DNA of 60,047 bases from a virus. A program made the position numbers and the translations under genes. Positions within the stretch are counted from its first letter, which is position 1. Each line of letters opens with the position of its first letter. Below are positions 5,158 through 32,880 of the stretch, one piece after another. The stretch lies in the IMG/VR virus record IMGVR_UViG_3300044823_000503, positions 1 through 60,047 of that record; one strand, written 5' to 3'. Below the pieces are notes generated by a model. It saw only the letters and a list, made by a program, of their open reading frames with translations, had not been told where the DNA came from and ran no database searches.

Positions 5158-5345
5158 TGGTGACCCTCATCCTGGTCGCGGCGGGCATGGGCGTGCTCAT
5201 CCTGGTGGGCCTGGACTGGAGCACGGAGGGTCACCCGCGGGCGGTGCGCTGTAACCGCTGCGGCTGTGTGCTCGAGGGCTGGCCGGAGCCACGACCGGGC
5301 GGGATCATCTGCGCGCGGTGCTCGGCGATGGATGGGCCAGGGTGA
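5154..5345 (+). CDS. Membrane-anchored zinc-ribbon microprotein
   Basis: 63 aa. One N-terminal transmembrane segment (TLILVAAGMGVLILVGL), then CNRCG and CARC about 25 residues apart as a short zinc ribbon facing the cytosol or the virion interior. The same architecture is seen at 9590-9883. Coupled to its neighbours by ATGATGG and GTGA overlaps. Confidence 0.55.
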   Translation: MMVTLILVAAGMGVLILVGLDWSTEGHPRAVRCNRCGCVLEGWPEPRPGGIICARCSAMDGPG

Positions 5346-5845
5346 GGGCGGCCGTCCGCCTCAACCTCGGGTCAGGGGATCACCCGGCGCCTCCGCCCTG
5401 GATCAACATCGACATCAATGAGGAGTGCCATCCCGATCTGGTCGCCGACTGCCGTGCGCTGCCGTTTGCGACGGGGTGTGCGGAGCGGGTGTACTGCGGG
5501 CATTTCCTGGAGCATCTCCCGCTTGACGAGGTGGGGCCGACGCTGCGCGAGGTGGCGCGGGTGCTCGACCCGGTGGGCGGCCAGCTGTGCGTGGTAGGGC
5601 CCGACTGCGACCGGGCGCTCGCCTTCGATCCCGAGACCGCGCTGGGGGCGCTCTGGGGCGCCCACCGCTGGGCGGGTGACGAGCACCGCTGGGCCTGCAC
5701 CGAGGAGCGCCTCCTCCGCCTGGTCCTCGCGGCGGTGCCCTCGGCGGTGGCCGTGCCCATCGCGGAGGTACCCGACGGCTGGCCGGTGACCAGCCGGATC
5801 GGCTGGCAGTGCGCGGTGCTGGCTCCGGTCAGGCTGCGCACATGA
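5342..5845 (+). CDS. SAM-dependent methyltransferase (class I)
   Basis: 167 aa from the GTG at 5342, which overlaps the previous stop (GTGA). Motif I is LNLGSG at about 7-12; INIDINEE then ALPF and FLEHLP follow the class I order, and VVGPDCDRA is a late strand. It is a paralogue of 6473-6961. Genes of this type in sugar cassettes methylate glycans or sugar nucleotides, so the likely substrate is a virion or cell-surface glycan. The acceptor is not shown by sequence. Confidence 0.75.
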   Translation: MRAAVRLNLGSGDHPAPPPWINIDINEECHPDLVADCRALPFATGCAERVYCGHFLEHLPLDEVGPTLREVARVLDPVGGQLCVVGPDCDRALAFDPETALGALWGAHRWAGDEHRWACTEERLLRLVLAAVPSAVAVPIAEVPDGWPVTSRIGWQCAVLAPVRLRT

Positions 5846-6432
5846 TCCCGAAGATCCTCCACCGCGTGGTTCCCGCCCAGACGAGCGACGAGATCGAGGG
5901 ATGGTGGCGGGGCTGGCAGGAGCTCCACCCGGGCTGGGAGTTCCGCACCTGGCGGGATCTGCCCAACGCGGAGGAGTTCCCGCTCACCACGCCGTACATG
6001 GACGAGCGCTGCCTCGGCATCCAGCGGACCGACCTCATCCGCCTCGAGGCGCTCCTCATCCACGGTGGCATCTACCTGGACGACGACGTGGCCCCGGTGC
6101 GCCCGCTCGATCCCCTGCTCAGCCTGCAGGGCTTCAGCGCCTGGGAGAGTTCAAGCATCGTCTGCACTGCGGTGCTGGGGGCTGAGCCTGGCCATCCGGC
6201 CATCGCCGAGGCGATGCGCCGTGCCATCCAATGTGTGGAAGACGGTCGGGGGGCGTGGCAGACGGGCCCGGGCACGGCCACCGAGGTGTACCCGAACCGC
6301 ACCGACTGGCTGGTCCTGCCCCCCGCCACCTTCTACCCGTACTACATCGATGAGAGGTGGCGGCGGGGCGAGGACTTCTCGAAGCTCCCCTGGTGCTTTG
6401 GCGTTCACCACTGGTTTGGGTCATGGCTGTGA
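5842..6432 (+). CDS. GT32-family glycosyltransferase
   Basis: 196 aa, ATG at 5842 overlapping the previous stop (ATGA). IPKILHRVVP at the start, then TDLIRLEALLIHGGIYLDDD: the DxD motif (about residues 78-81) and the preceding GGIY are the hallmark of the Gly_transf_sug (GT32) family. It would move a sugar from a nucleotide donor with a divalent cation bound by the DxD. Sits between two paralogous methyltransferases, so it probably builds the glycan they act on. Confidence 0.8.
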   Translation: MIPKILHRVVPAQTSDEIEGWWRGWQELHPGWEFRTWRDLPNAEEFPLTTPYMDERCLGIQRTDLIRLEALLIHGGIYLDDDVAPVRPLDPLLSLQGFSAWESSSIVCTAVLGAEPGHPAIAEAMRRAIQCVEDGRGAWQTGPGTATEVYPNRTDWLVLPPATFYPYYIDERWRRGEDFSKLPWCFGVHHWFGSWL

Positions 6433-6472
6433 AGTTGAACCTTCAGATGCTTTTCCAGGTGCGACCTATACC

Positions 6473-6961
6473 ATGAGATTGAATATTGGAAGCGGCACGC
6501 ACCCGACGCCGGAGGGCTGGATCGCCATTGACAGCCTGCCCCAGCCAGAGCGCGTGGACGTCATCGCCGACGCTGGCGATCTACCCTTCCCGGACGGCTG
6601 CGCGGAGCGCCTGTACGCCGGCCATCTCCTGGAGCACATCCCGCTCGATCACCTGGGCGCGGTGCTCGGCGAGTGGCGGCGCGTGCTGGCACCCGGCGGC
6701 ATCCTGGGGGTGGTTGGGCCCGACATCGACCGCGCCGTCAGCCAGGGCGAGTCGCAGGGCCTGCTGGAGGCGATCATCGCCCATGGCGAGGGGCCGGGGG
6801 GCCACGCCTGGACCTGCAGCGCCCGTCTTGTCGACTACCTCCTCCGCCTCCACGGCTGGACGCCCGAGGAGGTCCCGGTGGCGACCCTCTACCCGCCGGA
6901 GTGGCCCAACCCCGTGCCCGGCGCGGGCTGGCAGCTCGCCTTCCTGGTCCGGCCCGCATGA
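6473..6961 (+). CDS. SAM-dependent methyltransferase (paralogue of 5342)
   Basis: 162 aa, ATG at 6473. LNIGSG is motif I, followed by DAGDLPFPDGCAERLYAGH, LLEHIP and VLAPGGILGVVGPDID, nearly position-for-position like the 5342 protein. A 40-bp gap of lower GC separates it from the GT32 gene. Presumably methylates a sugar of the same glycan. Confidence 0.75.
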   Translation: MRLNIGSGTHPTPEGWIAIDSLPQPERVDVIADAGDLPFPDGCAERLYAGHLLEHIPLDHLGAVLGEWRRVLAPGGILGVVGPDIDRAVSQGESQGLLEAIIAHGEGPGGHAWTCSARLVDYLLRLHGWTPEEVPVATLYPPEWPNPVPGAGWQLAFLVRPA

Positions 6962-7740
6962 GCGTCGTCGCCGTGGGGACCGTCCGCGACGAGGCCGACA
7001 TCATCGGCACCACCGTGGTGCACATGCTGGCCGAGGTGGACCTGGTCATCCTCGAGGATCACCTGAGCGTGGATGCGACGCCGCACATCCTGGCGGCACT
7101 CGATCAGATCTACCCGGGCCGTCTCCTGCTCCAGCGCGACCCCTCACCGCTCTTCGACCAGGCGGGCCGCATGAACGCCCTGGCACGGCTCGCCCGCGAT
7201 CGCGGCGCCGACTGGATCGTGCCCTTCGACGCCGATGAGATCTGGTACTCGCCCACCGGCCGGCCGCTCCGCGAGCTGCTGCCGGAGTTGCCAGCGGATG
7301 TGTGTGCGGCGACGGTCTGGGAGCACACCCCCGACGCTGCCGACCCGACCGCCATCTTCCGGCGCCGCCATGTGCTGCCCTGGCCGTGGGTGAAGGTCTG
7401 CTACCGCCCCACCTACGACACCCGGCTCTGGATCGGCCAGCACGGCGTGGACGGCGCGGGCGAGCGGGTCGATCACGATGCCGTGGCGATGCGCCACCTC
7501 CCCTGGCGCAGCGAGGCCCAGGCGCGCCGGCGCGTCCACCGCGACGCCACCGACGAGCTGGGCGGTGCGGCCGGCCTGCACACCCTGAACACCTCGCTGT
7601 ATCGCGGATATGTCGAGGACGAGGCGCAGTTCCTGGGACTCTGGGCCACCGTCACGACGGCGCCCTGGACCGACGATCCCGTACCCGTGCGCCTCCCCGC
7701 CCTCGGCACCAGCTACGGCGCTGGCGACGACCTGGCGTGA
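6958..7740 (+). CDS. GT2-type glycosyltransferase
   Basis: 260 aa, ATGA overlap with the methyltransferase. The N-terminus (VAVGTVRDEADIIG) and ILEDHLSVDATP match the Glyco_tranf_2_4 type, and FDADEIW near residue 91 is the metal-binding DxD. No transmembrane segment, so probably soluble. Coupled by ATGA to the next, intein-containing gene. Confidence 0.75.
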   Translation: MSVVAVGTVRDEADIIGTTVVHMLAEVDLVILEDHLSVDATPHILAALDQIYPGRLLLQRDPSPLFDQAGRMNALARLARDRGADWIVPFDADEIWYSPTGRPLRELLPELPADVCAATVWEHTPDAADPTAIFRRRHVLPWPWVKVCYRPTYDTRLWIGQHGVDGAGERVDHDAVAMRHLPWRSEAQARRRVHRDATDELGGAAGLHTLNTSLYRGYVEDEAQFLGLWATVTTAPWTDDPVPVRLPALGTSYGAGDDLA

Positions 7741-9593
7741 TGCGTTTCATCCATCCCTACACCCGTCTCCGCGAGGAGGTGACGGCACGCCTGGAGGCGA
7801 GCGGCCACCCCTTCGAGCGCTGCGACCTCTCGGGATCGATCTTCGACTACTCGGCGCTCATGGAGGGCCTCTGGCAGCCGTCCACCCCGGGCGTCGTCCT
7901 CGTGGAGCACGACGTGGTGATCGAGCCCGGCGCCATTGACGAGTTGCTCGCCTGCCCAGAGGACTGGTGCGCCTTCCAGGTCACCTACCTGGGCCAGGAG
8001 GGAGGGCACCCCGGTCTCGGCTGCGTGAAATTCTCCCAGGCTCTCATCGCCCGCCACCCCGACGCCATGGAGCTGGCGGGGCAGATCTGGGATCAAGAGC
8101 ATCAGCCCCGGCATTGGTGCCTGACGCCCGATGCACGCGTATTGACAGCGGATCTGCGCTGGCTTCCCCTTGGCGAGGTGAAGGTGGGCGATCATCTCAT
8201 CGGAGCCGATGAGGAACGCAGCCACGCCCCGATCCGCCCCTACCGCCGTTACCAACCCTCCACCGTGGAGGCCGTCGCCACCACGACGGCGAAGGTTCTG
8301 CGCATCATCCTAGACGACGGTACCGAACTCCGGGCAACGGCGGATCACCGCTTTCTCGGGAGCCGTACCCAGACGCGGGGGGAGATGCGTTGGCTTCGTG
8401 TGAAGTGGAAGGCGGCTCGCGACCTAGAGCCTGGACGCGATCTCCTCTATCGCTATCTGACGCCTGCGGCAGCTCTGGCGACGCGGGATGCGGGCTACCT
8501 GGCTGGCCTGTTCGATGGCGAGGGCACGATGAGTCGCTCCAGCAATGATCTTGGCTTCTCTCAACTCCCCGGGCCCACGCTGGATGCGGCGGTCGCGACC
8601 ATGTCCCGTCTCGGCTTCCGAGTGCATGTCGCTCCCAACGGGGTGGGCCCAAGGTTCGGGCGGCGAGTGCAGGTGGCCAAGATCAACGGGGGCATGGCCG
8701 AGCGTTTGCGTTTCCTCGCGGCGGTAAGGCCAGAGCGGCTCATCGCGAGGTTGGACATCCAAAGGCTCGGGTGGCTGGAGGCGCATGAGCGTCTCCGCGT
8801 GGTGTCGGTGGAGCCCGCTGGGGAGCAGGACGTGGTCCAGATGCAGACCAGTTCGGGGACCTATCTCGCAGAGGGCTTTCTTTCCCACAACTGCCGGATC
8901 GACGCCTGGCTGCAGCAGCTCGTGCTCCCCGGCGTGCCCGCGTCGGCGCTGGGGGCCAACGGCTTCATCCCCGACCCTGCCGCCCCAAGGGAGACCCAGC
9001 ACATCCACGGCCCGCCACTCCTTCACCTCCGGGACGGCACCGGGCCGCCCATGCCGGCGCACGGCTGCGGGCCCAAGGTGGGGGCCATCTTCGCCACTGA
9101 CGGCGAGCTGATGCCGAGCCGGTTTGTGGGGTCGCTGGTCAATGTCCAGCTGCCGCTCGGTGGCTGGCACAAGGCGGTCGCCATGGATCCGTCGGGCACG
9201 GGTGTCGGCATGGCCACCGCCGTCCACGGCTTCCTCAACATGCCCGGCTGGACGCGGCTCATCCTCTGGCATCCCTCCGTGATCGGCCAGCCCGACTGTA
9301 TCATCCGCCACGCCGCCCACACCGTTGCCGTGGTCACCGGCATGGAGAGAGAGACCGAGCGTGCCGACTTCGGCATGGTCAGCTTCGAGCGCTCCATCCT
9401 GGAGCGCTGGCCGACCGATGCGCTGCGCCTGCTGGGCATCCACCGCGGCCACCCCGACCCCGAGGCGGTCATCACCACCACCCGTCTGCTGGGCGGCGAT
9501 GTCCAGAAGGACACCGAGATCCCTCTGGTGCACGTCGCCCCCGAGGCCCGCAGCAACATGCTCCTCCTGCCCGGCCGGGACTTCCACCGATGA
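7740..9593 (+). CDS. GT-like protein interrupted by an intein
   Basis: 617-aa precursor. The exteins (residues 1-126 and 385-617) join into a 359-aa protein. The first part (VVLVEHDVVIEPGAIDELL) resembles GT-A proteins with an EHD in the DxD position; the second part contains VGSLVNVQLPLGGWHKA. An intein sits at 8118-8891 between W and C. The gene is coupled by ATGA to the GT2 gene upstream and to 9590 downstream. The glycosyltransferase assignment of the exteins is moderate and rests partly on context. Confidence 0.65.
   Translation: MRFIHPYTRLREEVTARLEASGHPFERCDLSGSIFDYSALMEGLWQPSTPGVVLVEHDVVIEPGAIDELLACPEDWCAFQVTYLGQEGGHPGLGCVKFSQALIARHPDAMELAGQIWDQEHQPRHWCLTPDARVLTADLRWLPLGEVKVGDHLIGADEERSHAPIRPYRRYQPSTVEAVATTTAKVLRIILDDGTELRATADHRFLGSRTQTRGEMRWLRVKWKAARDLEPGRDLLYRYLTPAAALATRDAGYLAGLFDGEGTMSRSSNDLGFSQLPGPTLDAAVATMSRLGFRVHVAPNGVGPRFGRRVQVAKINGGMAERLRFLAAVRPERLIARLDIQRLGWLEAHERLRVVSVEPAGEQDVVQMQTSSGTYLAEGFLSHNCRIDAWLQQLVLPGVPASALGANGFIPDPAAPRETQHIHGPPLLHLRDGTGPPMPAHGCGPKVGAIFATDGELMPSRFVGSLVNVQLPLGGWHKAVAMDPSGTGVGMATAVHGFLNMPGWTRLILWHPSVIGQPDCIIRHAAHTVAVVTGMERETERADFGMVSFERSILERWPTDALRLLGIHRGHPDPEAVITTTRLLGGDVQKDTEIPLVHVAPEARSNMLLLPGRDFHR
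8118..8891 (+). other. Intein with LAGLIDADG-type endonuclease domain (258 aa)
   Basis: In-frame insert starting CLTPDARVLT (Cys1, block A). ATADHRFLG supplies the block B His. LAGLFDGEGTM is a LAGLIDADG/DOD motif. It ends GTYLAEGFLSHN before Cys+1 (blocks F and G; penultimate His, terminal Asn). All residues needed for protein splicing are present. Only one clear LAGLIDADG motif is visible, so the homing function may be reduced. Confidence 0.9.
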
Positions 9594-10022: not shown

Positions 10023-10364
10023 GTGGCGACGCTCTATGACATCGGCAAGGCGGCATCGCTGCGCCCGCCGTCCGGCCAGGGGTTTACGCTCAAGTGGAGC
10101 CAGCTGCTGGGCCAGGGGCCACCCTCTCAGAAGGCATACGCCGACCGCATCGGCATCGGAGTCTGGGTGGTGGTTGGGCTCACTCTCGGCGACCCGCCCC
10201 AGCCGGAGCAGGTGGCGGAGGAGATGATCTCCGCCGGCATCGCCACCGGCGTGTACGAGATGGAGATCTGGGAGCAGGATCAGACCATCCTGGGCACCGG
10301 TGCGATCAATTTCTGGTACATCACCATCTATGCTCCCGGGCCCAACGCAGGAGAGGCTTCCTGA
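10023..10364 (+). CDS. Hypothetical protein, first gene of structural-type operon
   Basis: 113 aa from the GTG 6 bp after the -10. It has a mixed helix/strand pattern with a hydrophobic segment (IGIGVWVVVGLTLG) and an aromatic C-terminus (GTGAINFWYITIYAPG). No family recognised. It leads a set of small membrane proteins under a late-type promoter, so a virion or assembly role is inferred. Confidence 0.5.
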   Translation: MATLYDIGKAASLRPPSGQGFTLKWSQLLGQGPPSQKAYADRIGIGVWVVVGLTLGDPPQPEQVAEEMISAGIATGVYEMEIWEQDQTILGTGAINFWYITIYAPGPNAGEAS

Positions 10365-10849
10365 TGCCAGCATTGCCGATCGGCGCGATCATCCTCGCCA
10401 TCTTCGCCATCGCCATCCTCGATCCCGCCGTGCAGAAGCGGATCGAGTCGGTGCTCTCCGGCTTCGGCAGCGCCGCCGCCAGCGGCCCGATCTCGACGGC
10501 GACCAAGTGGTGGCTGCTCGCCGCCGGCGCCGTGGGGGCGCTCGGGGTGGGGTGGTGGGTGGTCCAGACCAAGATCGCCAAGCACGAGGGGTACGATGTG
10601 GCCCCGCCGCCGGTCGAATCCATCGGGGTGCCCGCGCCGCCCACCTTCGGGGCCTCGGGTGGCTTCACCGCCAGCAGCCAGGGCGGCATCGGCCTGAAGC
10701 AGGAGGTCACCGCCACGGGCGGCGGCACCACGGGCCGGGGCGGCTTCGGCCAGGTGACCAAGCGCGAGGCCAAGCCCAAGGCCGAGCCTCCAGTTGCGGC
10801 CCCGATCACGCCGTCCCGGCGCAGCGGTCTGGGCGGCCGGGCCGCCTGA
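10364..10849 (+). CDS. Two-TM membrane protein with Gly-rich tail
   Basis: 161 aa; the ATG shares a base with the previous stop (TGATG). Transmembrane segments at about 4-20 (PIGAIILAIFAIAILD) and 45-63 (WWLLAAGAVGALGVGWWVV); the remaining 95 residues are Gly/Pro-rich and basic. Likely a minor membrane protein of the particle or envelope. Confidence 0.5.
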   Translation: MPALPIGAIILAIFAIAILDPAVQKRIESVLSGFGSAAASGPISTATKWWLLAAGAVGALGVGWWVVQTKIAKHEGYDVAPPPVESIGVPAPPTFGASGGFTASSQGGIGLKQEVTATGGGTTGRGGFGQVTKREAKPKAEPPVAAPITPSRRSGLGGRAA

Positions 10850-10867
10850 GAGGATCGCGAGGATCGC

Positions 10868-11047
10868 ATGGACCGCCGCCGCGATCTCGCCGTCTTGGGC
10901 ACCGGGGTGATGCTGGGGGTGATCGCTCTCGAGGCGCACTTCCTGATCCGCCAGGCGGCCCGGGTCTGGATCCCGACCCTGCTGGGCCGGCGGTTGGAAG
11001 CTGGCACCATCCGGCTGCCGATCTCCCGCAGCGCCGCCCCCCCGTGA
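10868..11047 (+). CDS. Small single-TM protein
   Basis: 59 aa, ATG at 10868. MDRRRDLAVLGTGVMLGVIA gives a basic N-terminus and one hydrophobic segment; the C-terminus has a second amphipathic helix. Its 3' end contains the GATCTCCC box of the next gene's promoter. Confidence 0.45.
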   Translation: MDRRRDLAVLGTGVMLGVIALEAHFLIRQAARVWIPTLLGRRLEAGTIRLPISRSAAPP

Positions 11048-11053
11048 TGTAAT
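11020..11053 (+). promoter_or_regulatory. Late-type promoter: GATCTCCC-20-TGTAAT
   Basis: GATCTCCC 11020-11027 (inside the preceding small gene), 20-bp spacer, TGTAAT 11048-11053, 7 bp to the ATG at 11061. Confidence 0.65.
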
Positions 11054-11060
11054 CGGGGCC

Positions 11061-11492
11061 ATGCGAAAGCTCGACTTCGTCCCACCGCTTCTGGGCGTGG
11101 GCACCGGCCTGGCCGACGGTGCCGTGGTGGAGTGGCTCACCCCCCACTTCGCGCAGGCCCCGGGCGTCTTCCGCCTGGCGGAGTTGCTGGTCGGCGCTCT
11201 GGGCCTTGGCCTGGAGTGGGATGACGACCTCAGCTACGGGCTCATCACGGTCGCGACCAACCGTCTCGCCGGTCAGGTGATCCCCGCCATCGCCCAGCGC
11301 AACGCGGGCACCCTGCTGGCCGCCGACATCACGCCGGCCCGTGGCCGCGGCGTGCGGGTGACCAAGCCCACGGGTGCCCGGGCCGCCGGCTGCACCAGCT
11401 GCGGCGATGTGGCCTCCCCGCCACCGGTTCCGGTGGTCGTGAACCGCCCCTACCCGGGCGGCGACATGATCTCGCAGCCAGGGCTGCTCTGA
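11061..11492 (+). CDS. Membrane protein with SxPGLL C-terminal tail
   Basis: 143 aa, leaderless ATG. Hydrophobic segments around 8-24 and 42-56, then a Gly/Arg-rich region, a CTSCG pair and the tail ISQPGLL. The tail is shared with the proteins at 11676, 21153, 43088 and 43485. I infer a virion membrane protein. A CxxC without partners may form a disulphide. Confidence 0.55.
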   Translation: MRKLDFVPPLLGVGTGLADGAVVEWLTPHFAQAPGVFRLAELLVGALGLGLEWDDDLSYGLITVATNRLAGQVIPAIAQRNAGTLLAADITPARGRGVRVTKPTGARAAGCTSCGDVASPPPVPVVVNRPYPGGDMISQPGLL

Positions 11493-11554
11493 GCTGTCCC
11501 CCCTCAAGGGGCCGGGTAAGTTCTCCACCCGGCCCCGAACGGGAACTCCGGGGC

Positions 11555-11588
11555 GATCTCCCGCAAACCGAAACGGCCTGGGTACCAT
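11555..11588 (+). promoter_or_regulatory. Late-type promoter: GATCTCCC-20-TACCAT
   Basis: GATCTCCC 11555-11562, 20-bp spacer, TACCAT 11583-11588. Unlike the other sites it is about 87 bp from the next full-size start (11676), giving a leader with a hairpin. Confidence 0.65.
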
Positions 11589-11596
11589 CGGGTGGT

Positions 11597-11647
11597 CACG
11601 CTTTGGGAGAGCGCATCCGGTCTCGGCCAAACCCGTCCCAAAGCGTG
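11597..11647. promoter_or_regulatory. Leader hairpin (12-bp perfect inverted repeat)
   Basis: CACGCTTTGGGA at 11597-11608 and its exact complement at 11636-11647 fall in the leader between the 11583 -10 box and the 11676 gene. A mini-frame starting GTG at 11592 and stopping at 11648 spans it (18 codons), so attenuation or mRNA stabilisation is possible. Confidence 0.5.
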
Positions 11648-11675
11648 AGGCCTCCGGGGAAGCGGCTCCCAGAGC

Positions 11676-12164
11676 ATGGCGACATATCAGCCATCGCCAA
11701 CTGGAGGTCGTGGGGCCGTGTACCGCTTCCCATTCGCCGTCCTCGGCACCGAGGCCGTGCTCGGCGTCGGCAAGGGCGTCTCCACATCCTGGGACATCGA
11801 TCGCTGGCAGCGCAATCCTGCCAACACCACGGGCACGCCGACGCCGCCACTCTCGTTCATCGAGAACTCGGGGCTGGATGTCGGCATCGGCGCGCTGCTC
11901 TTCGGTCTGGTCGGCCAGATCGCCGAGTGGCCGCACTCCGACGTCTCGGAGTCGCTCATGGGTGGAGGCGCCCTGATCCTCTCTGAGGTCATCACAACGG
12001 CCGTCGCCCAGCGCGGCAACAAGGGATACATCACCCCGTCGACCGGCACCGGGGCTCGCCTCGCGGGTCGCGCCGGCCACGGCCACGGTGAGCGGGCGGC
12101 GGGCCTCGCGGCTCCGGCCGCGCGCAGCGCGTTCCTCCAGGTCAGCCAGCCCGGCCTCCTCTGA
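11676..12164 (+). CDS. Membrane protein with SxPGLL C-terminal tail
   Basis: 162 aa. Hydrophobic segments at about 17-28 and 66-84 (GLDVGIGALLFGLVG), a third near 95-105 (GGGALILSEVI), a basic Gly-rich stretch and the tail LQVSQPGLL, identical in its last six residues to the preceding protein. Lies directly before the two capsid-like genes. A membrane-associated virion protein is inferred. Confidence 0.55.
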   Translation: MATYQPSPTGGRGAVYRFPFAVLGTEAVLGVGKGVSTSWDIDRWQRNPANTTGTPTPPLSFIENSGLDVGIGALLFGLVGQIAEWPHSDVSESLMGGGALILSEVITTAVAQRGNKGYITPSTGTGARLAGRAGHGHGERAAGLAAPAARSAFLQVSQPGLL

Positions 12165-12255: not shown

Positions 12256-12849
12256 ATGACCCTGATCGCGATCACGCCAGAGGCGAGTCTCAACCCGGGC
12301 CAGCTGAAGCTGCTCCGGGACACGGCCTGTTCTGTGGCCCAGAGCTCGGCGCGGGGTGCGTCCAACGCGGACCTGACCACGCGCCCGATCACCCCGACCG
12401 ACTGGTACGGGACCCAGTCGGCCGTCTTCGGCAACGGGGTGGCGGTCATCGCCAACACCCCCACCGTGGACACCGCGGTGGCCCGTGTCCCGCAGGCGAC
12501 CTCCTGGGTCGTCTTCGGGTACGGCGTGCTGTACCCGTCCGCGAGCAACCTGCCCTCCATCCAGGAGATCTGGATCGGCACCGGCTCCCAGGTCTTCGCC
12601 AAGATCCGGCTGGACCCGCTGCACGCCGAAGGGGCGTTCACGACCAGCCGTGGCCGGATGGGGTACTTCGACCCCATCTACTTCATCGCGAACTCGAAGC
12701 CGACGATCACCTACGTGACCAGCAACAGCCTCTTGGCGGCCAACGCCGAGACCTACGCCCTGGTCGGGATCATCGCCGAGCCTCCGATCACGGTGGTCAA
12801 CCAGCCGGCGGTGGCGCCGGGCCAGCCCGCCAGCCAGGCGGCCGGCTGA
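12256..12849 (+). CDS. Candidate capsid protein A (197 aa, beta-rich)
   Basis: 197 aa. Predominantly beta strands (SWVVFGYGVLYP, EIWIGTGSQVFAKIRL, GYFDPIYFIA, TYALVGIIAEPPITVV) with no transmembrane segment. It is homologous to 44800-45492 over its length: both have GYFDP[IV]Y and IAEPP. Paired with a 270-aa beta-rich protein and followed by a strong hairpin, as expected for a highly expressed virion gene. The sizes resemble the two single-jelly-roll capsid proteins of P23-77-type membrane phages, but that is inference from size, order and strand content only. Confidence 0.5.
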   Translation: MTLIAITPEASLNPGQLKLLRDTACSVAQSSARGASNADLTTRPITPTDWYGTQSAVFGNGVAVIANTPTVDTAVARVPQATSWVVFGYGVLYPSASNLPSIQEIWIGTGSQVFAKIRLDPLHAEGAFTTSRGRMGYFDPIYFIANSKPTITYVTSNSLLAANAETYALVGIIAEPPITVVNQPAVAPGQPASQAAG

Positions 12850-12867
12850 GCCTCCTTTCGCACTGAA

Positions 12868-12909
12868 GCCGACCAGCCAGCCCCCCGCCGCGGGGGTGCT
12901 GGCGTCGGC
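12868..12909 (+). terminator. GC-rich hairpin after capsid-like gene
   Basis: GCCGAC...GTCGGC outer arms with an inner CCAGCCCCCC / GGGGGTGCTGG stem. It sits between the two capsid-like genes, so it may attenuate the downstream gene rather than stop transcription entirely. Confidence 0.5.
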
Positions 12910-12941
12910 CGTTCACAACCAGGATTCACGAGGTAGCGTCG

Positions 12942-13754
12942 ATGCGATCGACTGGACGCGAGCGATTTTTCCGTGGCGGATGGAACACCCTCGAGCCGGG
13001 TGACCTCTGCATCCTGGTGGACGGCACCGCATGGAGCGGCCTCCCCGTCTATGACGTGGTCCAGGCCCGGGGCCTCAACTCGCTGGGCGAGTCCCCGGGC
13101 GGTGTCACCGTGATCTGGGCGGTGAGCTCGCCGTACCCCCCCTACAAGCTCGACCCCAAGGCCAACGTCGGTCAGCTCGGCGCGGGCGGGCAGACCCCGC
13201 TCATCGCTCCCGACGCCTTCCAGCTCCAGACCAATGAGCTGGTGCAGGCCCGCTTCAAGATCAAGCTCATCGACACGATGGCGGGCAGCGGCGCCAAGGT
13301 CGGCAACTTCGACCTGAACGGCTATCTGCCGGGCGCCAGCCTGTACTGGGGCACGACCCAGACCACCGCGCCGCTCAACGCGCGGATGCAGATGCCCGAT
13401 CCCGCCGACGCCATCTCGCTGCCGGTGCAGGACGCCAACATGGCGCTGCCCTCGGGGTACGCCCACGACGACGGCTTCCTGTTCGCCGAGACCACCGAGA
13501 TGTTCTGGCAGTACAACATCATCCCCCAGTTCCGCCTGACCTGGAACGGGGCCGCCGCGACCCCGGCCGGGATCGCGGTGGCGCTCGAGGTGCAGGGGTA
13601 CGACTACATCCTGCGCCCGCGTGGGGGCAGCACCCAGGGCCGCAACGCCGTGATCGGCGGGGTGGCCGTGAGCGTGCCCGATGGCGTCTCCCAGGACGAC
13701 ATCATCCCCATCCCCGTCCAGGCGCTGGCTGGCTCCGCCGCCCGCGGGCAGTAA
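12942..13754 (+). CDS. Candidate capsid protein B (270 aa, beta-rich)
   Basis: 270 aa, ATG at 12942 with GAGG upstream. Soluble, strand-rich sequence (GDLCILVDGTAWSG, QARFKIKLIDTM, NIIPQFRLTWNG, GIAVALEVQGYDYIL) with many aromatic and Asn/Gly turns, as in jelly-roll capsid proteins. It directly follows the 197-aa protein. A major virion protein is likely from context; the exact fold is not provable here. No paralogue seen in the window. Confidence 0.5.
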   Translation: MRSTGRERFFRGGWNTLEPGDLCILVDGTAWSGLPVYDVVQARGLNSLGESPGGVTVIWAVSSPYPPYKLDPKANVGQLGAGGQTPLIAPDAFQLQTNELVQARFKIKLIDTMAGSGAKVGNFDLNGYLPGASLYWGTTQTTAPLNARMQMPDPADAISLPVQDANMALPSGYAHDDGFLFAETTEMFWQYNIIPQFRLTWNGAAATPAGIAVALEVQGYDYILRPRGGSTQGRNAVIGGVAVSVPDGVSQDDIIPIPVQALAGSAARGQ

Positions 13755-13761
13755 CCGGCCG

Positions 13762-14250
13762 ATGAGCATCTCGCCCCCCCCGCGGGCACGTCCACCGTTC
13801 CCCGCCGCCGCCGCCCGGGCGCTGGAGGCGGCCGGAGTGCCAGCCGCCCCCACCGGCGGTCCTGCGGCGGTGGAGGTGCGCCTTCCCGCCGACCTCATGG
13901 CCCTGCTGCGCCACTACTTCGCCATCGCCGCCGACGGGGAGACCCGCGCCGCCACCCTCAACGACGGCCTGCCGCGTCAGATCGCGTTTCTCAATCGGAA
14001 GAGGGTGGCCCTCGGGATCTTTCCGGTCACCAGCGGGGCTTCGGTCTTCTGGGGTTTCTCCGACGCCGTGACAGCGGCACCGACCGGTCGGATGCCGGGC
14101 ATCCCCATCCCCGTCTCCGGCGGCTACATCTACGGGTCCGCCTACATCGGCCCGGTGTGGCTGGTCGCCGCCGCCGGTTCCGCCTTCCCGCTGGATGTTC
14201 GCGTCGTGGAGCACTCCGAGGTCGAGTACGATCCGCTGACAGGGCGGTAA
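13762..14250 (+). CDS. Beta-sandwich structural protein
   Basis: 162 aa, ATG at 13762. Pro/Ala-rich N-terminus, helix (LMALLRHYFAIAADG), then RKRVALGIFPVTSGASVFWG and IGPVWLVAAAGSAFPLDVRV. This resembles small phage structural proteins of the 'RVALLIQNTS...GPVYLIAASG' type. Likely a virion decoration or spike-base protein. Confidence 0.5.
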   Translation: MSISPPPRARPPFPAAAARALEAAGVPAAPTGGPAAVEVRLPADLMALLRHYFAIAADGETRAATLNDGLPRQIAFLNRKRVALGIFPVTSGASVFWGFSDAVTAAPTGRMPGIPIPVSGGYIYGSAYIGPVWLVAAAGSAFPLDVRVVEHSEVEYDPLTGR

Positions 14251-14257: not shown

Positions 14258-14884
14258 ATGGGAGGCGCACTTCAGGTCGTCCCCAGCCCCAATCTGGGGT
14301 TGCCCGCCGACCTGGGTGGTGCCACCGCCCCCACCCGTTACGTGGGTGGCACGGTCTCCGGTGCCCCCACCTCGGGAACCTTCCAGGCACGTGACTTTGT
14401 GGTCGACGGGTCGGGTGCGATCTGGGTTTGCACCACGGCCGGGTCGCCGGGGTTGTGGAACAACGCCGGCGACGCTGCCAACCTGGTGACATCGGTCTTC
14501 ACCCGGACCGGGCCCGTGGTTGCCACGGCTGCCGACTACGCCGCCTTCTACCCGGCTCTGGGCGCTACGGCGAGCGAGGTGGAACTCACCGCGGTCACCC
14601 CCACGAACGTCGTCACCCTCACCCCCGCCGGCGCCGGGAACTTCCGCGTCGGCATCTATTTCCGCGTGGTGACCGCGACCACCACGGTGACGCTCACGGT
14701 CAGCTGGACCGACGTCACCGGAGCCCAGACGCTCACCCTCCTGAACGGGGTATCCGAGGTGACCGGGTCGTATGCGCTCGCCGAGTTCATGGTCAACTCG
14801 GTCGCGGCCAACGCGATCACCGTCACCTTCACGGCGGGCACCGTCAACCGGGTGTACGCCTCCGCCTCGATCCAGCAGGGCTAG
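14258..14884 (+). CDS. Fibre-type protein
   Basis: 208 aa. N-terminus VVPSPNLGLPADLGG, then ARDFVVDGSGAIWVCTTAG, a motif common in phage fibres, and a C-terminal beta-sandwich (FRVGIYFRVVTATTTVTLTV). Probably trimeric and receptor- or base-plate-associated. The similar jelly-roll at 14888 suggests they assemble together. Confidence 0.55.
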   Translation: MGGALQVVPSPNLGLPADLGGATAPTRYVGGTVSGAPTSGTFQARDFVVDGSGAIWVCTTAGSPGLWNNAGDAANLVTSVFTRTGPVVATAADYAAFYPALGATASEVELTAVTPTNVVTLTPAGAGNFRVGIYFRVVTATTTVTLTVSWTDVTGAQTLTLLNGVSEVTGSYALAEFMVNSVAANAITVTFTAGTVNRVYASASIQQG

Positions 14885-14887
14885 CCG

Positions 14888-15304
14888 ATGGCTGCTGCCA
14901 CCCTTCTGGACGTCGCCACCCCGGCCCCGGCCTTGGCCGCTGCGGCGGGGAGCACCGGCACGGCGCCGCCGACCATCCTGGTCGCGGGCGCGGCGGTGAC
15001 CATGACCACTGCGGGCACCGGGTACAACCTCAACTCCATCTCCCTGGGCGCTGGGCTATGGGCGGTGGTCGGCATCGGGGGGGTCACCTCGGCGGGCACG
15101 ATCACCGCGTACTTGAACGCAGCGACCGGGACAGCCGCCAACTCCTGGCCCACGGTGACGACGGGGACAGGCGTAGAGCCTGCGACCGTGACGATCGCCG
15201 CCGTGATCCGCCTCACCACGACCACCACGGTGTACCTGAATGCCACTTCTGGAGCCGCTGCGGAGACCGGGTACGGCATCCTCCGAGCGGTGCAGATCGG
15301 TTAG
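14888..15304 (+). CDS. Beta-sandwich protein related to the 14258 C-terminus
   Basis: 138 aa. Ala-rich start, then alternating strands rich in Thr (GAAVTMTTAGTGYNLNSISL, LTTTTTVYLNATSG). The strand pattern resembles the C-terminal domain of the preceding protein. Probably a virion surface protein. Confidence 0.5.
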   Translation: MAAATLLDVATPAPALAAAAGSTGTAPPTILVAGAAVTMTTAGTGYNLNSISLGAGLWAVVGIGGVTSAGTITAYLNAATGTAANSWPTVTTGTGVEPATVTIAAVIRLTTTTTVYLNATSGAAAETGYGILRAVQIG

Positions 15305-15357: not shown

Positions 15358-15795
15358 GTGAGCGCTGATCCCACCACCTCACTCGCGGTTGCGGACAGCC
15401 TGCTCGCCCAGGCGGCGGCGGCGTCCGACGAGGGCGACTGCATGGAGCTGCTCGCGGCCGCGAGCCAGGCGCTGGCCGACGCCGGCGCCGACCTCGAGGC
15501 GGCGGGCGACATCTCCCAGGCCGATCAGGCCCGGTCGCTCGCCAGTGAGCTCTCCCGCCTGGTGGCCGCTTCCACCCTCCCCGGCTGCCTGACCCTCCGT
15601 CAATTCCAGAGCCAGGTGGTCGCCGCCATCGCGACCGACGCCGCCCGCATCTCGCCATCGGCGGCGCAACTGGGCGTGCCCGGTGGTCCCGGATCCGGGC
15701 TGGCGGCCGCGCTCGGCCTGGGCGGCGGCGCGCTCGCCATCCTGCTGATCGGGGTCGCGTCCCGGCGGCAGCGGCAGGACCGCTCGAGGGGCTGA
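15358..15795 (+). CDS. Small protein with C-terminal TM; paralogue of 41366
   Basis: 145 aa from a GTG at 15358; the start is uncertain, since a 15-codon mini-frame from GTG 15321 overlaps it. Helical domain with two Cys (CMELLAAASQALADAGADLE ... CLTLRQFQSQ), then one TM near 115-135 (LAAALGLGGGALAILLIGV) and a basic end. Similar to 41366-41905 in CLTLRQFQSQ / MSLADFQSQ and in topology. Confidence 0.5.
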   Translation: MSADPTTSLAVADSLLAQAAAASDEGDCMELLAAASQALADAGADLEAAGDISQADQARSLASELSRLVAASTLPGCLTLRQFQSQVVAAIATDAARISPSAAQLGVPGGPGSGLAAALGLGGGALAILLIGVASRRQRQDRSRG

Positions 15796-15796: not shown

Positions 15797-16867
15797 GTGT
15801 CGCTGGCCGGCCCCATCATCGCGCTCACCTCAGGCGGCACGGCCCCGATCCCCGCCCCCAAGGTCTCGACGCCCCCCTGCACCGCGCTGCTCCAGAATGT
15901 CTCGCCCTTCGCCCTCCAGGCGCAGGTGCAGGGCGGCACCATCTGGGTCGCCCCCTACGTCCAGCAGTCCGTCCCCTGGTCCAACGCGGTGGGGATCACG
16001 GTCACCGCTGAACCCATCATCACGAGCCCGGTTGGAGCTCCCGCGACCCTCCTGGTCACCTTCTACGACCAGGGCGAGGCCGTCCCCGCCAACGGGCCCA
16101 TCACCGGCTACACCTCGATCAGCGGCGCGACCATCAACGCGAGCATCGCCGGGCCCCTCACCGTGAGCTTCGCCCCCGGCACGACCGTCTCCATCGGCGG
16201 CTCGGTGGCGACCACCATCGACACCTCAGGCGGCCCCGTGCTGATGACGGGGACCGTCGCCATCAGCAGCGGGACGGTCAACGTCGGCACCATCGCCGGG
16301 GCCGTCTCCATCGCCGCCAATCAGGTGGTGGCGGTGCAGAACACCTCGGGCGGGACGGTCCAGGTCGGGGGCACGGTGGCGATCAGCTCCGGCACGGTGA
16401 ATGTGGGCACCATCTCGGGCTCGGTCACCATCGCGAGCGGCAGCGTGAGCGTCTCCGGCACCGTGGCCATCTCCTCGGGGACCATCAACATCGGCACCAT
16501 CTCGGGAGCGGTGTCGCTGACCAGCGGCACCACCATCATCACCGAGACCGGCTCGCTCACCGACATCACTCCATCCGGCAGCTATTCGGTTTCGTACGGC
16601 ACCTCGGGCGGGACGGGCAACTGGTACCAGGTTCTTGCCGCCAACGGCAACCGTAGAGGGCTGCTCATCTTCGCCAACTGGAGCAACGCGGTACAGGTGG
16701 GGGTGGGCCTGGGGACGACCGGCTATTTCAGCATCGTCTTGAACCCCGGCGACTACTGGGAGATGCCCGCCCCCATCTGGACTGGCATCATCTTTCTCTT
16801 CTGGTACGGCGGAACCCTCTCTGGCGGCTTCGTCAACAGCTACTACATTCTCACCGAGATAACCTGA
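15797..16867 (+). CDS. Repetitive beta-helical fibre protein
   Basis: 356 aa, GTG one base after the previous stop. Residues 150-250 consist of about five repeats of the type GTVAISSGTVNVGTI, expected to form a triple beta-helix shaft. The N-terminus (SPFALQAQVQGGTIWV) is a globular base and the C-terminus (GTSGGTGNWYQVLAANGNRR) is a globular tip of about 90 residues. Fits a trimeric fibre. Confidence 0.65.
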   Translation: MSLAGPIIALTSGGTAPIPAPKVSTPPCTALLQNVSPFALQAQVQGGTIWVAPYVQQSVPWSNAVGITVTAEPIITSPVGAPATLLVTFYDQGEAVPANGPITGYTSISGATINASIAGPLTVSFAPGTTVSIGGSVATTIDTSGGPVLMTGTVAISSGTVNVGTIAGAVSIAANQVVAVQNTSGGTVQVGGTVAISSGTVNVGTISGSVTIASGSVSVSGTVAISSGTINIGTISGAVSLTSGTTIITETGSLTDITPSGSYSVSYGTSGGTGNWYQVLAANGNRRGLLIFANWSNAVQVGVGLGTTGYFSIVLNPGDYWEMPAPIWTGIIFLFWYGGTLSGGFVNSYYILTEIT

Positions 16868-17155
16868 ATGTCGATGACACCGTTCGGCCCAGGGCACACC
16901 TGGATGTTGGCATCGCAGGAGGCACTGCCACGCGGTGGCGCGCGTCTGGTCGCGGCATGGTCGAGTTGCGCTCGCTGCGCTGGGGGGTGGGCACCGTCAG
17001 AGCCAGCCCATTGCGCCGCAACGGCGGAGTGGCTGACGGAGCATCCAGGCGACGACGGGGCCTGTCACTGCCGCCAGCACAGCGGCGTGGACGCGGCGAG
17101 GGTCACCGTCATCGGTACCTTCGCGCCTCCGTCCGCGCAGGGAGGTGGGAGATGA
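16868..17155 (+). CDS. Cys/His-rich small protein
   Basis: 95 aa, ATG immediately after the previous stop. CARCAGG, AHC, then TAEWLTEHPGDDGACHC and H form a probable zinc site. The block AHC-(x)n-TAEWL-x2-HPGDDGACHC-x2-H is repeated in 18768-19283. Unknown function, sandwiched between fibre genes. Confidence 0.45.
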   Translation: MSMTPFGPGHTWMLASQEALPRGGARLVAAWSSCARCAGGWAPSEPAHCAATAEWLTEHPGDDGACHCRQHSGVDAARVTVIGTFAPPSAQGGGR

Positions 17156-18771
17156 CCCAGGTCATGGTCTCCGTCACCCCGGGAATGAACTGGCTGGGCC
17201 CGTGGTCCGCCACCACCGCGTACGCGCCGACCAACGTCGTGAGCTTCGCCGGCAGTTCCTATCTCTGCATCGCCGCCAACACCAACCAGCAACCCCCCAA
17301 CGCGACATATTGGAACCTCGTGGCGGCGTCGGGTGCAGGGGGAACGCCGGCGACCTCAGTCACTGGCCCGGACGCCTTCGGCGCTTCCCCCGTCGTGGGC
17401 GTGGGGACCGCCTTCGCCCGCCAGGATCACGATCACGGCCTGCCGTCTGCACCCGCCGACCTCCCCCTCGCCGGCGGCACCATGAGCGGGGCCATTGCCA
17501 TGGGGGCGCACAAGATCACCGGGATGGCCAACGGGGCGGCGGCGCAGGACGCGGCCACCTTCGGCCAGCTGCCGAGCGTCCCCGGCCCAGCCGCCTCCGT
17601 GACCGGCCCGGACGCCTTCGGGGCCTCCACGGTGGTCGGGATCTCTGCAGCCTACGCCCGCCAGGATCACGACCATGGCCTGCCCGCCTCGCCATTCAAC
17701 TGGCTGGGGGCCTGGTACAGCGGCACTGCGTACGTGGCGGGCGACGCCGTCGGCAGCGGTGGCTCCTCGTACATCTGCATCCTCGGCAACACCAACGAGG
17801 TGCCTCCGAACGCCACCTATTGGAACCTCCTGGCCCAGGAGGGGACCGCGGGAGTGCCGGCGACCTCGGTCACTGGCCCGGACGCCTTCGGCGCCTCAGC
17901 GGTCGTGGGCGTGGGGACCGACTTCGCCCGCCAGGATCACGGCCACGGGCTGCCCGCAGCGCCCGCGGACATTCCACTCTCCACCGTCACCGCTGCGGGC
18001 GATCTGATCCAGGGGACAGGTTCGGGGGCGGTGGCCCGGCTTGCGCTGGGCACCCTCCACTACATGCTCGCCGCCGGGGCTACCGCTGTGGGCTGGGTGG
18101 CCTCGGCGGTCTCGACCCTCACGACGGCTGGCGACCTCCTCTATGCGAGCGCGGCGAACACCCTGGCGCGGCTGGGAATCGGCGTGACGGGGCAGGTGCT
18201 GACCGTGGTATCGGGAGCCCCAGCCTGGTCCGGCGGCACAGTGAACGGCGGCCCTCCGAGCGGCTCCGGCGCCTATGCGGGCGAGCAGATTCAGGACACC
18301 AAGTACGGCGTGGTCTGGTGGTGGGACGGGAGTGCCTGGCACGCCAACGGACCAGGGCTTATCAAGGCCGAGATGTACCGCAATGCTGCCTGGACGCCAG
18401 CGAACAGCGGCATCGCCATTCCTTATGACACCCCGTTCAGCGACCCCCTGAGCCTTATTACGATCGCCAGTCACTACTTCAAGTGCCCCATCGCTGGGGA
18501 TTATCGAGTGGCTGCCGATGTCTCCCAGTCAACCGCAGGCGCAGCCACGTACATTCAGTTGTTGTGTAGCGGTTCTTCAGTGTCAGGCAGCAGGGTTTTT
18601 GCAGGGAGCACAAGCGGGGTGGTGGGTGACTACGGCGGGACAGCGGGGACGGTGCGAGTCTCGTGCGCCGCTGGTGATGAGTTGACGATCCTCTTCTACT
18701 GGAGCAACGCCTACGCCATGCAGGTGGGTGCTGAATGGGCCTGGGCACAATTCGAGTTCGTGTCCTCATGA
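17152..18771 (+). CDS. Receptor-binding fibre with CBM-like modules and C1q-like tip
   Basis: 539 aa, ATG in an ATGA overlap. Two modules of chitin/carbohydrate-binding type (WSATTAYAPTNVVSFAGSSY and the matching WYSGTAYVAGDAVGSGGSSY, each followed by PPNATYWNL). Three copies of GPDAFGAS ... ARQDH(D/G)HGLP, where HxH may bind metal. A C1q/TNF-like C-terminus of about 135 residues. No transmembrane segment. Best read as a trimeric host-recognition fibre. Confidence 0.75.
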   Translation: MTQVMVSVTPGMNWLGPWSATTAYAPTNVVSFAGSSYLCIAANTNQQPPNATYWNLVAASGAGGTPATSVTGPDAFGASPVVGVGTAFARQDHDHGLPSAPADLPLAGGTMSGAIAMGAHKITGMANGAAAQDAATFGQLPSVPGPAASVTGPDAFGASTVVGISAAYARQDHDHGLPASPFNWLGAWYSGTAYVAGDAVGSGGSSYICILGNTNEVPPNATYWNLLAQEGTAGVPATSVTGPDAFGASAVVGVGTDFARQDHGHGLPAAPADIPLSTVTAAGDLIQGTGSGAVARLALGTLHYMLAAGATAVGWVASAVSTLTTAGDLLYASAANTLARLGIGVTGQVLTVVSGAPAWSGGTVNGGPPSGSGAYAGEQIQDTKYGVVWWWDGSAWHANGPGLIKAEMYRNAAWTPANSGIAIPYDTPFSDPLSLITIASHYFKCPIAGDYRVAADVSQSTAGAATYIQLLCSGSSVSGSRVFAGSTSGVVGDYGGTAGTVRVSCAAGDELTILFYWSNAYAMQVGAEWAWAQFEFVSS

Positions 18772-19283
18772 GCGCGATATACGGCATCCCCGGCCATGTC
18801 TGGGAGTTGGACGCAGCCAAGCTCACGGCGGCGATGGTGCGGTCCACGCCACCAGCCGCATCCGATGGCGTGCGGCGCCCGACGGTTCCTTCCGGCGCCG
18901 CCTACATCGACATGGAGGCTGCCGATCCGTGGTTGGGATGCAGGCGGTGCGGCGCCCCGTATCCGGGCAGGGCCGGGGTGATGCCGGCGCACTGCCCGCC
19001 GACCGCTGAATGGTTAGCCCGGCATCCCGGCGACGATGGCGCCTGCCACTGTGCAGAGCATGATCCACCGGCGCCGCCGCCCAGCATGTCTGAGGCGACG
19101 TCGATCCACACCGCGGGCTGGCTCGCCGAACTCGGTGACCTCTACCAACTGCAGGATCACGACGCCCCCACAGTGGTGCAAGAGGCGGTAGCGGGCCGCA
19201 TCGCAGAGATCGTGGCGCTGCTCGCGTCCAGCCCGGGCCAGGGCAACTTGCCGGCGCCATCCGCTGATGCCCCTCTGGGATAG
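18768..19283 (+). CDS. Cys/His-rich protein with shared HPGDDGACHC block
   Basis: 171 aa, ATGA overlap with the fibre gene. CRRCGAP then AHC, TAEWLARHPGDDGACHC and EH match the block in 16868-17155. The C-terminal third is helical (VVQEAVAGRIAEIVALL). Possibly a fibre chaperone or accessory given its position; this is a guess. Confidence 0.5.
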   Translation: MSAIYGIPGHVWELDAAKLTAAMVRSTPPAASDGVRRPTVPSGAAYIDMEAADPWLGCRRCGAPYPGRAGVMPAHCPPTAEWLARHPGDDGACHCAEHDPPAPPPSMSEATSIHTAGWLAELGDLYQLQDHDAPTVVQEAVAGRIAEIVALLASSPGQGNLPAPSADAPLG

Positions 19284-19288
19284 CCCCG

Positions 19289-19837
19289 ATGTCGCCGCTC
19301 TGGCACGCGAACAGGCCCAACGTCAGAGGCAACGCGGGACCGCCGGCTGGGGCCACCACGGGATATCTGGTGCCAGTCGGGGATACGGGATTCATGGTGT
19401 GGGCGGCGGCGGTGGGGTTTCTCATCCCTGCGGGTCTGAGCGGACCCACCATGACCATCTCCGGCGTCGGGTTGTATTTGCGCGGGGCGGTCGGAGCGAC
19501 CGCATCTGGCTGCCTGTGGTCCAACACCCATACCCTCATGGCCTCCGGTCCCGCCGTCGCCCTTCCCGCCTCCATCGGCTGGGTGTGGTTGCCCGTCGCG
19601 TGGAGGGGAGCGCAGAGTCTCGCTCCGGCGTACACGGGGTGCTGGATCGTCGGCTCCTTCTCCATCCAGAACTACGGCGTCCCGGGGCCAGCCTATATCG
19701 AGGCCACCGCGAGCGCCACACCAGGCAACCTTCCCGGTACCTTCCCCGCTGCCGTCGACAACTTCCCCGACTACTACATCTGGAAGTACCCGATTCAGAT
19801 GCGCCAGCGCGCCCTCGGCAAGGCGACCCACCCGTGA
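19289..19837 (+). CDS. Beta-rich virion-type protein
   Basis: 182 aa. Strand-rich with aromatic/Gly turns (GYLVPVGDTGFMVWAAAVGF, GWVWLPVAWRG, AYTGCWIVGSFSIQNYG). No TM of clear length despite hydrophobic strands. Last of the fibre block. Family not recognised. Confidence 0.45.
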   Translation: MSPLWHANRPNVRGNAGPPAGATTGYLVPVGDTGFMVWAAAVGFLIPAGLSGPTMTISGVGLYLRGAVGATASGCLWSNTHTLMASGPAVALPASIGWVWLPVAWRGAQSLAPAYTGCWIVGSFSIQNYGVPGPAYIEATASATPGNLPGTFPAAVDNFPDYYIWKYPIQMRQRALGKATHP

Positions 19838-19844
19838 AGGGCGT

Positions 19845-20135
19845 ATGATCCGCTCCGTGCCAAAGACGCGCGGAGCGCCCCCAGGGCCATCGGCGGGCAG
19901 TCACCCAGTCCCCGCCCCTGCCGCGTCGGCAGCGCCGGGCGTCACCATCCCGCCCCGCCTCGCCCAGCAGATCGGGCGTGAGCATCTCCAGCACCTCAAT
20001 GAGCGGGGTGACCTCGAGGCGCAGATTGAGCAGCTCCAGATGAGGCTGATGATCTCGGAGCGTCGGTGTGCCGACCTGGAGGCGCAACTCGCGCCGCCCG
20101 AGAGCACTGAGTCGCCGCCGGAGGAGCCCAGATGA
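19845..20135 (+). CDS. Short coiled-coil protein
   Basis: 96 aa from ATG 19845. A GTG at 19857 stands 7 bp after TATGAT (19844-19849), so the leaderless start may be 12 bp further in. Disordered Pro/Ala-rich head, then a coiled coil (LNERGDLEAQIEQLQMRLMI) and an acidic tail. ATGA overlap with 20132. Confidence 0.5.
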   Translation: MIRSVPKTRGAPPGPSAGSHPVPAPAASAAPGVTIPPRLAQQIGREHLQHLNERGDLEAQIEQLQMRLMISERRCADLEAQLAPPESTESPPEEPR

Positions 20136-20500
20136 GATGGGCCTTCGGTGCCAGCACGAAGGCGGGGGAGACCATCGACCAGACCCTCCGCACCACCTGG
20201 GCCAACCTCAAGACGACGCACTGCCTCAGCCCTTCGGCACTCACCGAGAGCCATGTGACCGAGGCCATCCAGGGGGCGCTCGCCCTCATCGGCACAGGTC
20301 TCTTCGGCACCCGGCACTCGGTGGGGGTGGGGGGCACGACGGTCGAACCCGGGGATCCGGTGAGCGTGCCGCCGGAGTTGCACCAGATCATGGTCTCGGT
20401 GGCCCAGCTTCCCGATCTGCCTGCCGCATCTGCTGTGTCGGTGGCGGCACCCCCGACCCCAGCGCCGATAACCGCACCGCCAGCCGCTCCCGCCGGGTGA
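20132..20500 (+). CDS. Hypothetical protein
   Basis: 122 aa. An amphipathic N-terminal half (ETIDQTLRTTWANLKTTHC, VTEAIQGALALIGTGLFG) and a Pro/Ala tail. Coupled to the coiled-coil gene. No family recognised. Confidence 0.45.
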   Translation: MRWAFGASTKAGETIDQTLRTTWANLKTTHCLSPSALTESHVTEAIQGALALIGTGLFGTRHSVGVGGTTVEPGDPVSVPPELHQIMVSVAQLPDLPAASAVSVAAPPTPAPITAPPAAPAG

Positions 20501-20541: not shown

Positions 20542-20742
20542 ATGAAGCCCCGGTGTGAGGCGTGCCAGGCCCCCGACCCCGTCGCCCTGCGCCAGCTCCT
20601 GGAGCTCGGCCTGCAGGAGAAGCCCGACCCCGAGGGCTCCGCGTTCAAGGCCCCCGACCTCTGTCCCCGCCACCGTCGCGCCCTGGCCGCCTTCGCCGCC
20701 CGGCTGGGCGAGGATGGCCGGCTGCTGTCGGGCACCGCGTGA
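20542..20742 (+). CDS. Zinc-binding microprotein
   Basis: 66 aa. CEAC near the N-terminus and CPRH about 38 residues later could ligate zinc; the middle is helical (VALRQLLELGLQEKPDP). Coupled by a GTGA overlap to the SCP2-domain gene. Confidence 0.5.
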   Translation: MKPRCEACQAPDPVALRQLLELGLQEKPDPEGSAFKAPDLCPRHRRALAAFAARLGEDGRLLSGTA

Positions 20743-21707: not shown

Positions 21708-21714
21708 GTTCCGC

Positions 21715-21748
21715 ACGCTACCAGCCGCCCCATAGCGGCAGGGAGATC
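21715..21748 (-). promoter_or_regulatory. Late-type promoter: GATCTCCC-20-TAGCGT
   Basis: On the minus strand GATCTCCC (21741-21748), 20-bp spacer, TAGCGT (21715-21720), 7 bp to the ATG at 21707. The pentad repeat array begins just upstream. Confidence 0.7.
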
Positions 21749-29421: not shown

Positions 29422-29456
29422 GCGGCTCAGGGTTCGTTGTCGACTATCCGACAGGT

Positions 29457-31275: not shown

Positions 31276-31394
31276 ACGGTGAGTTTACTACGTCGCCGCG
31301 GGTGTGTCAACTATATCGTTCCCCTCTGGAGGCTGGGCAGGACGGTCCGACGGGCTGACTGCGGATCACCGTCACTCCGAGACCGATGCGCAGC

Positions 31395-31622: not shown

Positions 31623-31637
31623 ACCGATACAGTGTGT

Positions 31638-32871: not shown

Positions 32872-32880
32872 GGCACAAAG

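Follow-up and report, generated by a model that had tools for sequence, protein, structure and literature searches.

An unclassified circular genome of about 70.5 kb that may belong to a large tailless bacterial virus

Two adjacent genes on the plus strand, encoding a 197-aa protein (positions 12256-12849; here 12256) and a 270-aa protein (12942-13754; here 12942), raise the question of whether a large virus without a tail, and with a membrane in its particle, lies behind this DNA. A sequence-only reading had proposed such a virus, likening the pair to the two single-jelly-roll capsid proteins of P23-77-type phages. The window, that is, the whole stretch of DNA analysed, comprises one IMG/VR record from end to end (60,047 bp), with a GC content of about 70% and without tRNA genes; a codon-usage script called 94 genes in it and every protein was read. 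We estimate at about 50% the probability that it derives from the circular dsDNA genome, about 70.5 kb in size, of an unclassified bacterial virus with, most likely, a tailless particle. The lineage is probably one of viruses, and in that case the particle probably has no tail.

Two further contigs, IMGVR_UViG_3300040944_000171 (70,626 bp; G001) and 3300043536_000280 (59,502 bp; G002), have the gene order of the window and are roughly 70-87% identical to it in nucleotide sequence. With six more (3300018024_000368, 3300039249_000046, 3300009616_000304, 3300009639_000003, 3300039310_000426 and 3300040942_000329) they make up a close lineage of nine viral contigs, the window included. G001 carries an exact 127-bp repeat at both ends, and because of these identical termini we take it for a complete genome of 70,499 bp, either circular or circularly permuted; 127 bp is a common assembler k-mer, and the repeat is a sign of a circular or permuted molecule and does not mark its physical ends. 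The window represents 85% of the ~70.5-kb genome. It misses an 11.4-kb stretch (28,342-39,768 of G001) that encodes an array of small basic proteins together with an 860-aa P4-type primase/SF3 helicase and a Gp37/Gp68-like protein (recognised by eye). More distant relatives were looked for with alignments and with DNA patterns written by hand, and none was found; all confirmed matches belong to one close lineage and therefore no deeper alignments were obtainable. Provirus searches, run without a positive control and hence weak as evidence, gave no match for a profile of 12256 in 395 genomes of one class (largely one sample twice) or for the AAA+ protein described below in 297 genomes of the phylum. 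The lineage is real, unclassified, circular and about 70.5 kb in genome size. Within the window, a 67-bp inverted repeat (9106-9172 and 36797-36863, 94% identical) corresponds to a coding fragment duplicated in antisense.

The genes by which tailed phages build and fill their heads were searched for in the complete relative. From the 121 predicted proteins of G001, 109 were compared with Pfam, PHROGs and NCBIfam at E 1e-3, a set made up of proteins of at least 60 aa without the primase, the AAA+ protein and the products of 19204-20310 and 38717-39580, the latter two straddling locus boundaries. No terminase, portal, capsid (including HK97), protease, tape-measure or tail-tube family was matched among the families listed, which for two of the scans were the first 25 of 49 and the first 25 of 28. 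For 19204-20310, the orthologue in the window (4051-5157) was compared with Pfam and PHROGs and matched nothing significantly. A six-frame Walker-A search of the whole genome disclosed two P-loop proteins, the P4-type primase/helicase and an AAA+ ATPase (39795-40778, minus strand), and a looser Walker search of the predicted proteins made no convincing addition. The lack of terminase, portal and tape measure noted earlier for the window extends, then, to the complete 70.5-kb genome of G001; any of these genes would have spoken against the sequence-only reading. The search suggested for the rest of the genome, for an FtsK/HerA-type packaging ATPase versus a terminase, found neither. Given that the genes for building and filling a tailed-phage head are missing, yet virion-like proteins and variable fibres are present, this may be a tailless virus of unusual size.

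Another possible reading is a tailed phage in which the genes for head, packaging and tail have diverged beyond recognition. The overall homology is low, and structural proteins may be too diverged for profiles; furthermore, tail-fibre and Tail Collar domains occur in the adhesin cassettes, and a 77-aa protein (46097-46330, minus strand), about 90% conserved in the lineage, is held in common with Rctr197k, a large tailed phage from a Methylomirabilis enrichment (37% identity, E 2e-5). Rctr197k also weakly matches the intein-bearing protein 7737-9593, and no other virion-module homologue was found in the 90 kb of it examined. We regard a tailed phage as improbable, since no P-loop was found in any protein of terminase-large size and no gene is long, helical and tape-measure-like, the longest proteins being the primase, methylases, the intein-bearing protein and fibres. 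Rctr197k itself was considered as a lead to tailless membrane viruses and dropped, as it encodes terminase-like and head-morphogenesis genes.

The two adjacent frames are present exactly as first described. They are genuine genes under purifying selection, because their orthologues in two other viral contigs (G001 and G002) are 93% identical for 12256 and 85% for 12942, with dN/dS values of 0.19 and 0.22, respectively. Among all window-G001 orthologue pairs, 12256 has the top amino acid identity (93.4%) and, among shared genes, the lowest dS (0.20 against a median of 0.49). C-ending codons account for 43 of its 44 NNY codons in the window and for 42 of 42 in G001 (98-100%, the genome-wide figure being 83-85%), a codon effect that taken alone is modest once the number of genes is allowed for. 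In its conservation, low dS and codon choice, 12256 behaves like an abundant structural protein and is the best candidate for the most abundant protein of the virion, 12942 being a candidate second capsid protein. No homologue of 12256 was detected in Pfam, PHROGs, PDB, phages or plasmids, a TraU match at E 0.025 missing the cut-off, and none of 12942 in any collection searched. AlphaFold models of the two proteins were unusable, with pLDDT values of 38 (alignment of 7 sequences) and 32 (3 sequences); Foldseek retrieved nothing at E <= 0.001 with these low-confidence models, and it is from them only that a beta-rich nature of the proteins is suggested. A 162-aa protein of the same module (13762-14250, plus strand) evolves faster (57% identity, dN/dS 0.44).

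The pair recalls known tailless viruses in its layout. In P23-77, as here, a small protein gene is followed by a larger one on the same strand (VP16 of 173 and VP17 of 291 aa, compared with 197 and 270 aa), and the same order is found in SH1 with VP7 and VP4. P23-77 and IN93 (Matshushitaviridae, Helvetiavirae) share with this lineage the neighbouring small proteins, genes of lysozyme/transglycosylase type, a circular genome and the lack of tail genes. However, their genomes measure 17-20 kb (P23-77, 17,036 bp) as opposed to 70.5 kb, their plan does not include the module duplication described below, and there is no sequence similarity. Their FtsK/HerA-type packaging ATPase, moreover, adjoins the capsid genes, whereas an ATPase of this type is not detectable in the complete relative G001. 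SH1 and HHIV-2 (Sphaerolipoviridae), for their part, differ in having linear genomes of 31 kb (SH1, 30,889 bp), an archaeal host and a packaging ATPase, again with no sequence similarity. Profiles of 12256 and 12942 showed no link to VP16, VP17, VP7 or VP4, a comparison that carries no information, as the control pairs VP16-VP7 and VP17-VP4 also miss each other in it. For the ATPase the control worked: profiles from P23-77/IN93 and from SH1/HHIV-2 recognise each other with 83% probability, and the match of the AAA+ protein to the P23-77/IN93 profile is limited to 31 columns around Walker A. As no FtsK/HerA-type ATPase, a defining trait of the group, was detected, membership in the Helvetiavirae fails. 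At 70,499 bp, the closed relative also lies beyond the genome size of that group, about 16-31 kb, a range that is typical and not strictly defining. An oversized virus of the P23-77/SH1 group, in which each of the two major capsid proteins has a vertical single jelly roll, is thus distinctly improbable here, though the gene order and the wall enzymes would speak for it, and the parallel drawn with VP16 and VP17 reduces to gene size and order. In sphaerolipoviruses the shell proteins are the most conserved and the vertex and fibre proteins the least (PMC5332951). The same gradient appears here, the candidate shell protein being the most conserved and the fibre the least.

A second module, located at 38.5-46.3 kb on the minus strand, is related to the module at 10.0-16.9 kb on the plus strand. 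The two share two protein families, since 12256 has a full-length paralogue of 230 aa at 44800-45492 (36% identity, profile E 2e-90) and the helical protein with a C-terminal TM segment at 15358-15795 (plus strand) has one, also a TM protein, at 41366-41905 (profile comparison, 93% probability, E 3e-7). Each module has its own small membrane proteins, and both are carried by G001 and G002. The duplication points to a particle or surface structure that would contain two related components. On the minus strand the second module also encodes a multi-TM protein (40824-41369), a 177-aa protein of permuted-papain appearance by eye only (42342-42875), two membrane proteins with the C-termini ..SAAGIL and ..SSPGIL (43088-44759) and a 197-aa TM protein next to the 77-aa protein already mentioned (45492-46330). 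Its AAA+ ATPase (PF07728 AAA_5, E 1e-13; also MCM and RuvB_N) has the lowest dN/dS of the shared genes and is the only encoded candidate for a motor. To our knowledge, every well-studied icosahedral dsDNA bacterial virus has a recognised packaging motor. That neither such a motor nor a capsid fold was recognised here speaks against the tailless-virus reading.

Around and downstream of the pair, the plus strand encodes what appears to be the apparatus for contact with the host. Five small proteins (113, 161, 59, 143 and 148 aa; 10023-12164) precede it, several with hydrophobic segments and two ending in ..PGLL, and two adhesin-like proteins of 208 and 138 aa (14258-15304) follow, the first matching phage tail-fibre PHROGs at E 4e-5; the G001 gene list has no counterpart at this place. 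The candidate fibre or spike protein (15797-16867) is built of a conserved N-terminal region of 110 aa, a repetitive stalk and a variable distal part. The N-terminal region is 100% identical between G001 and a further relative, G003, and 80% identical between the window and G001, while the distal parts are 43-58% identical; the total length is 356, 500 and 755 aa in three relatives, and dN/dS amounts to 0.80. Next to it lies a 539-aa fibre of receptor-binding type (17152-18771; PHROG tail fibre, E 1.7e-22; CBM_5_12, E 3e-7), the place of which is taken by other genes in the relatives: in G003 it is filled by a protein with a Tail Collar domain (E 4e-13), and G001 has neither type. As judged from the sequences, a constant anchor, a variable tip and exchangeable downstream genes are the anatomy of an anchored receptor-binding fibre. 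The large tailless virus supposed at the outset is favoured by the lack of tailed-phage hallmarks, the virion-type fibre, the resemblance of 12256 to a major structural protein and a genome far larger than that of P23-77, the P23-77 parallel being the part that did not stand. The internal membrane would follow from the small TM proteins only; a crude hydropathy scan finds a hydrophobic segment in about 20-25 of the 94 predicted proteins of the window. The wall hydrolases with TM anchors were confirmed as an SLT_3 enzyme (55095-55958) and a CHAP enzyme (55967-56824) on the minus strand; a hydrophobic segment lies close to the C-terminus of both, and their C-terminal halves are homologous to each other.

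Surface adhesins and wall enzymes might, on the other hand, have been acquired from phages by a plasmid-like extrachromosomal element that forms no virion. We hold this to be the main alternative, unlikely as it is. P4-type primases are common on plasmids, capsid or packaging genes were not recognised, and the genes include those for a serine recombinase and DNA methylases, joined in G001 by one whose product resembles ParB by eye. The primase (G001 36112-38694) is 35-47% identical to P4-type primases of actinophages and plasmids over about half its length, a likeness confined to the replication module and with no bearing on the virion. However, no relaxase, coupling protein or T4SS family is among the G001 families listed from Pfam, PHROGs and NCBIfam, there is no ParA-type P-loop, 12256 and 12942 are unmatched in 72,556 plasmid records, and the anchor and tip of the fibre together with the wall hydrolases fit a virion better. 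Were the element a plasmid, it would be a warning on the calling of viral contigs. In the tailless icosahedral viruses of bacteria and archaea used for this comparison, the genome measures 17-31 kb and the packaging motor is of FtsK/HerA type; if the tailless reading is true, a 70-kb lineage without a recognised motor stretches those limits or indicates a different way of filling the capsid.

The most unusual new observation is that unrelated proteins share C-terminal tags peculiar to this lineage, of which there are two, ..SxPG(I/L)L on proteins of the membrane and virion modules and ..RRRxAPxHTHxHGGR on small basic proteins. An end of the form S-x-(P/A)-G-(I/L)-L is found on at least five otherwise different proteins of the window (11061-11492 and 11718-12164 on the plus strand; 21153-21716, 43088-43474 and 43485-44759 on the minus strand). 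Relatives retain the motif even if the protein bearing it is exchanged: at the position of 43088 G003 encodes a 305-aa protein that has no match in the window and yet ends in ..AVSAPGIL. The second tag lies in the stretch that the window misses. It is carried by nine small basic proteins of G001 (28670-34618), which combine an Arg-rich stretch with a His-rich tail, typically APxHTHxHGGR; G002 also has this set. The tails correspond in part to repeated DNA cassettes at gene junctions, and in a pattern scan of IMG/VR one form of them, HTHAHGG, was found as a protein C-terminus in this lineage only. A natural guess is that the tags serve for sorting or for DNA condensation, and they give experiments on protein sorting a direct starting point. 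It is a tentative and rather unlikely proposition that they sort many unrelated proteins into the particle of a new lineage of ~70-kb tailless bacterial viruses whose capsid protein and packaging principle have no relation to any known ones.

Taking the lineage as that of a tailless virus, we propose the following model. The 12256 protein would be a major shell protein and 12942 a second shell or vertex protein, whereas the paralogue 44800 and the 39.8-46.3 kb module would provide a second layer or a vertex. The products of 15797 and 17152 would form a spike and receptor-binding fibres, anchored via the constant N-terminus; for the small membrane proteins, a role in lining an inner membrane or as plugs of the vertices is envisaged. 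The TM-anchored lysozyme and CHAP enzymes could open the wall, the P4-type primase/helicase would replicate the genome, and the DNA might enter the particle by means of the AAA+ protein, of a host motor or of motor-free co-assembly.

The host is suggested to be an actinobacterium by the kinship of an IS1595-like transposase (30352-31275, minus strand), whose closest copies (70-80% amino acid identity) come from Actinomycetota, including several Acidimicrobiia; the hint is indirect, as such elements can pass from one host to another. An SCP2 (sterol carrier) domain protein, also part of the sequence-only reading, is encoded at 20739-21071 on the plus strand, its G001 orthologue matching PF02036 at E 3e-12. 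Glycosyltransferases, small SAM methyltransferases and a nucleotide-sugar epimerase, encoded at 5342-9593 and 46317-47231, possibly glycosylate the virion or a surface. An intein, with a LAGLIDADG-like stretch seen by eye, lies inside the uncharacterised protein 7737-9593 and is present in G001 as well. The paralogues 26-628 and 26131-26637 have HExxH-like motifs (HEYGH and HEVGH) and a common C-terminal region. Finally, a 216-aa protein encoded at 22111-22761 on the minus strand, 88% conserved and without a family match, has a Gly-rich C-terminus (GIGSDRSQGSGTF) and recalls, by eye, proteins of the RAMP fold.
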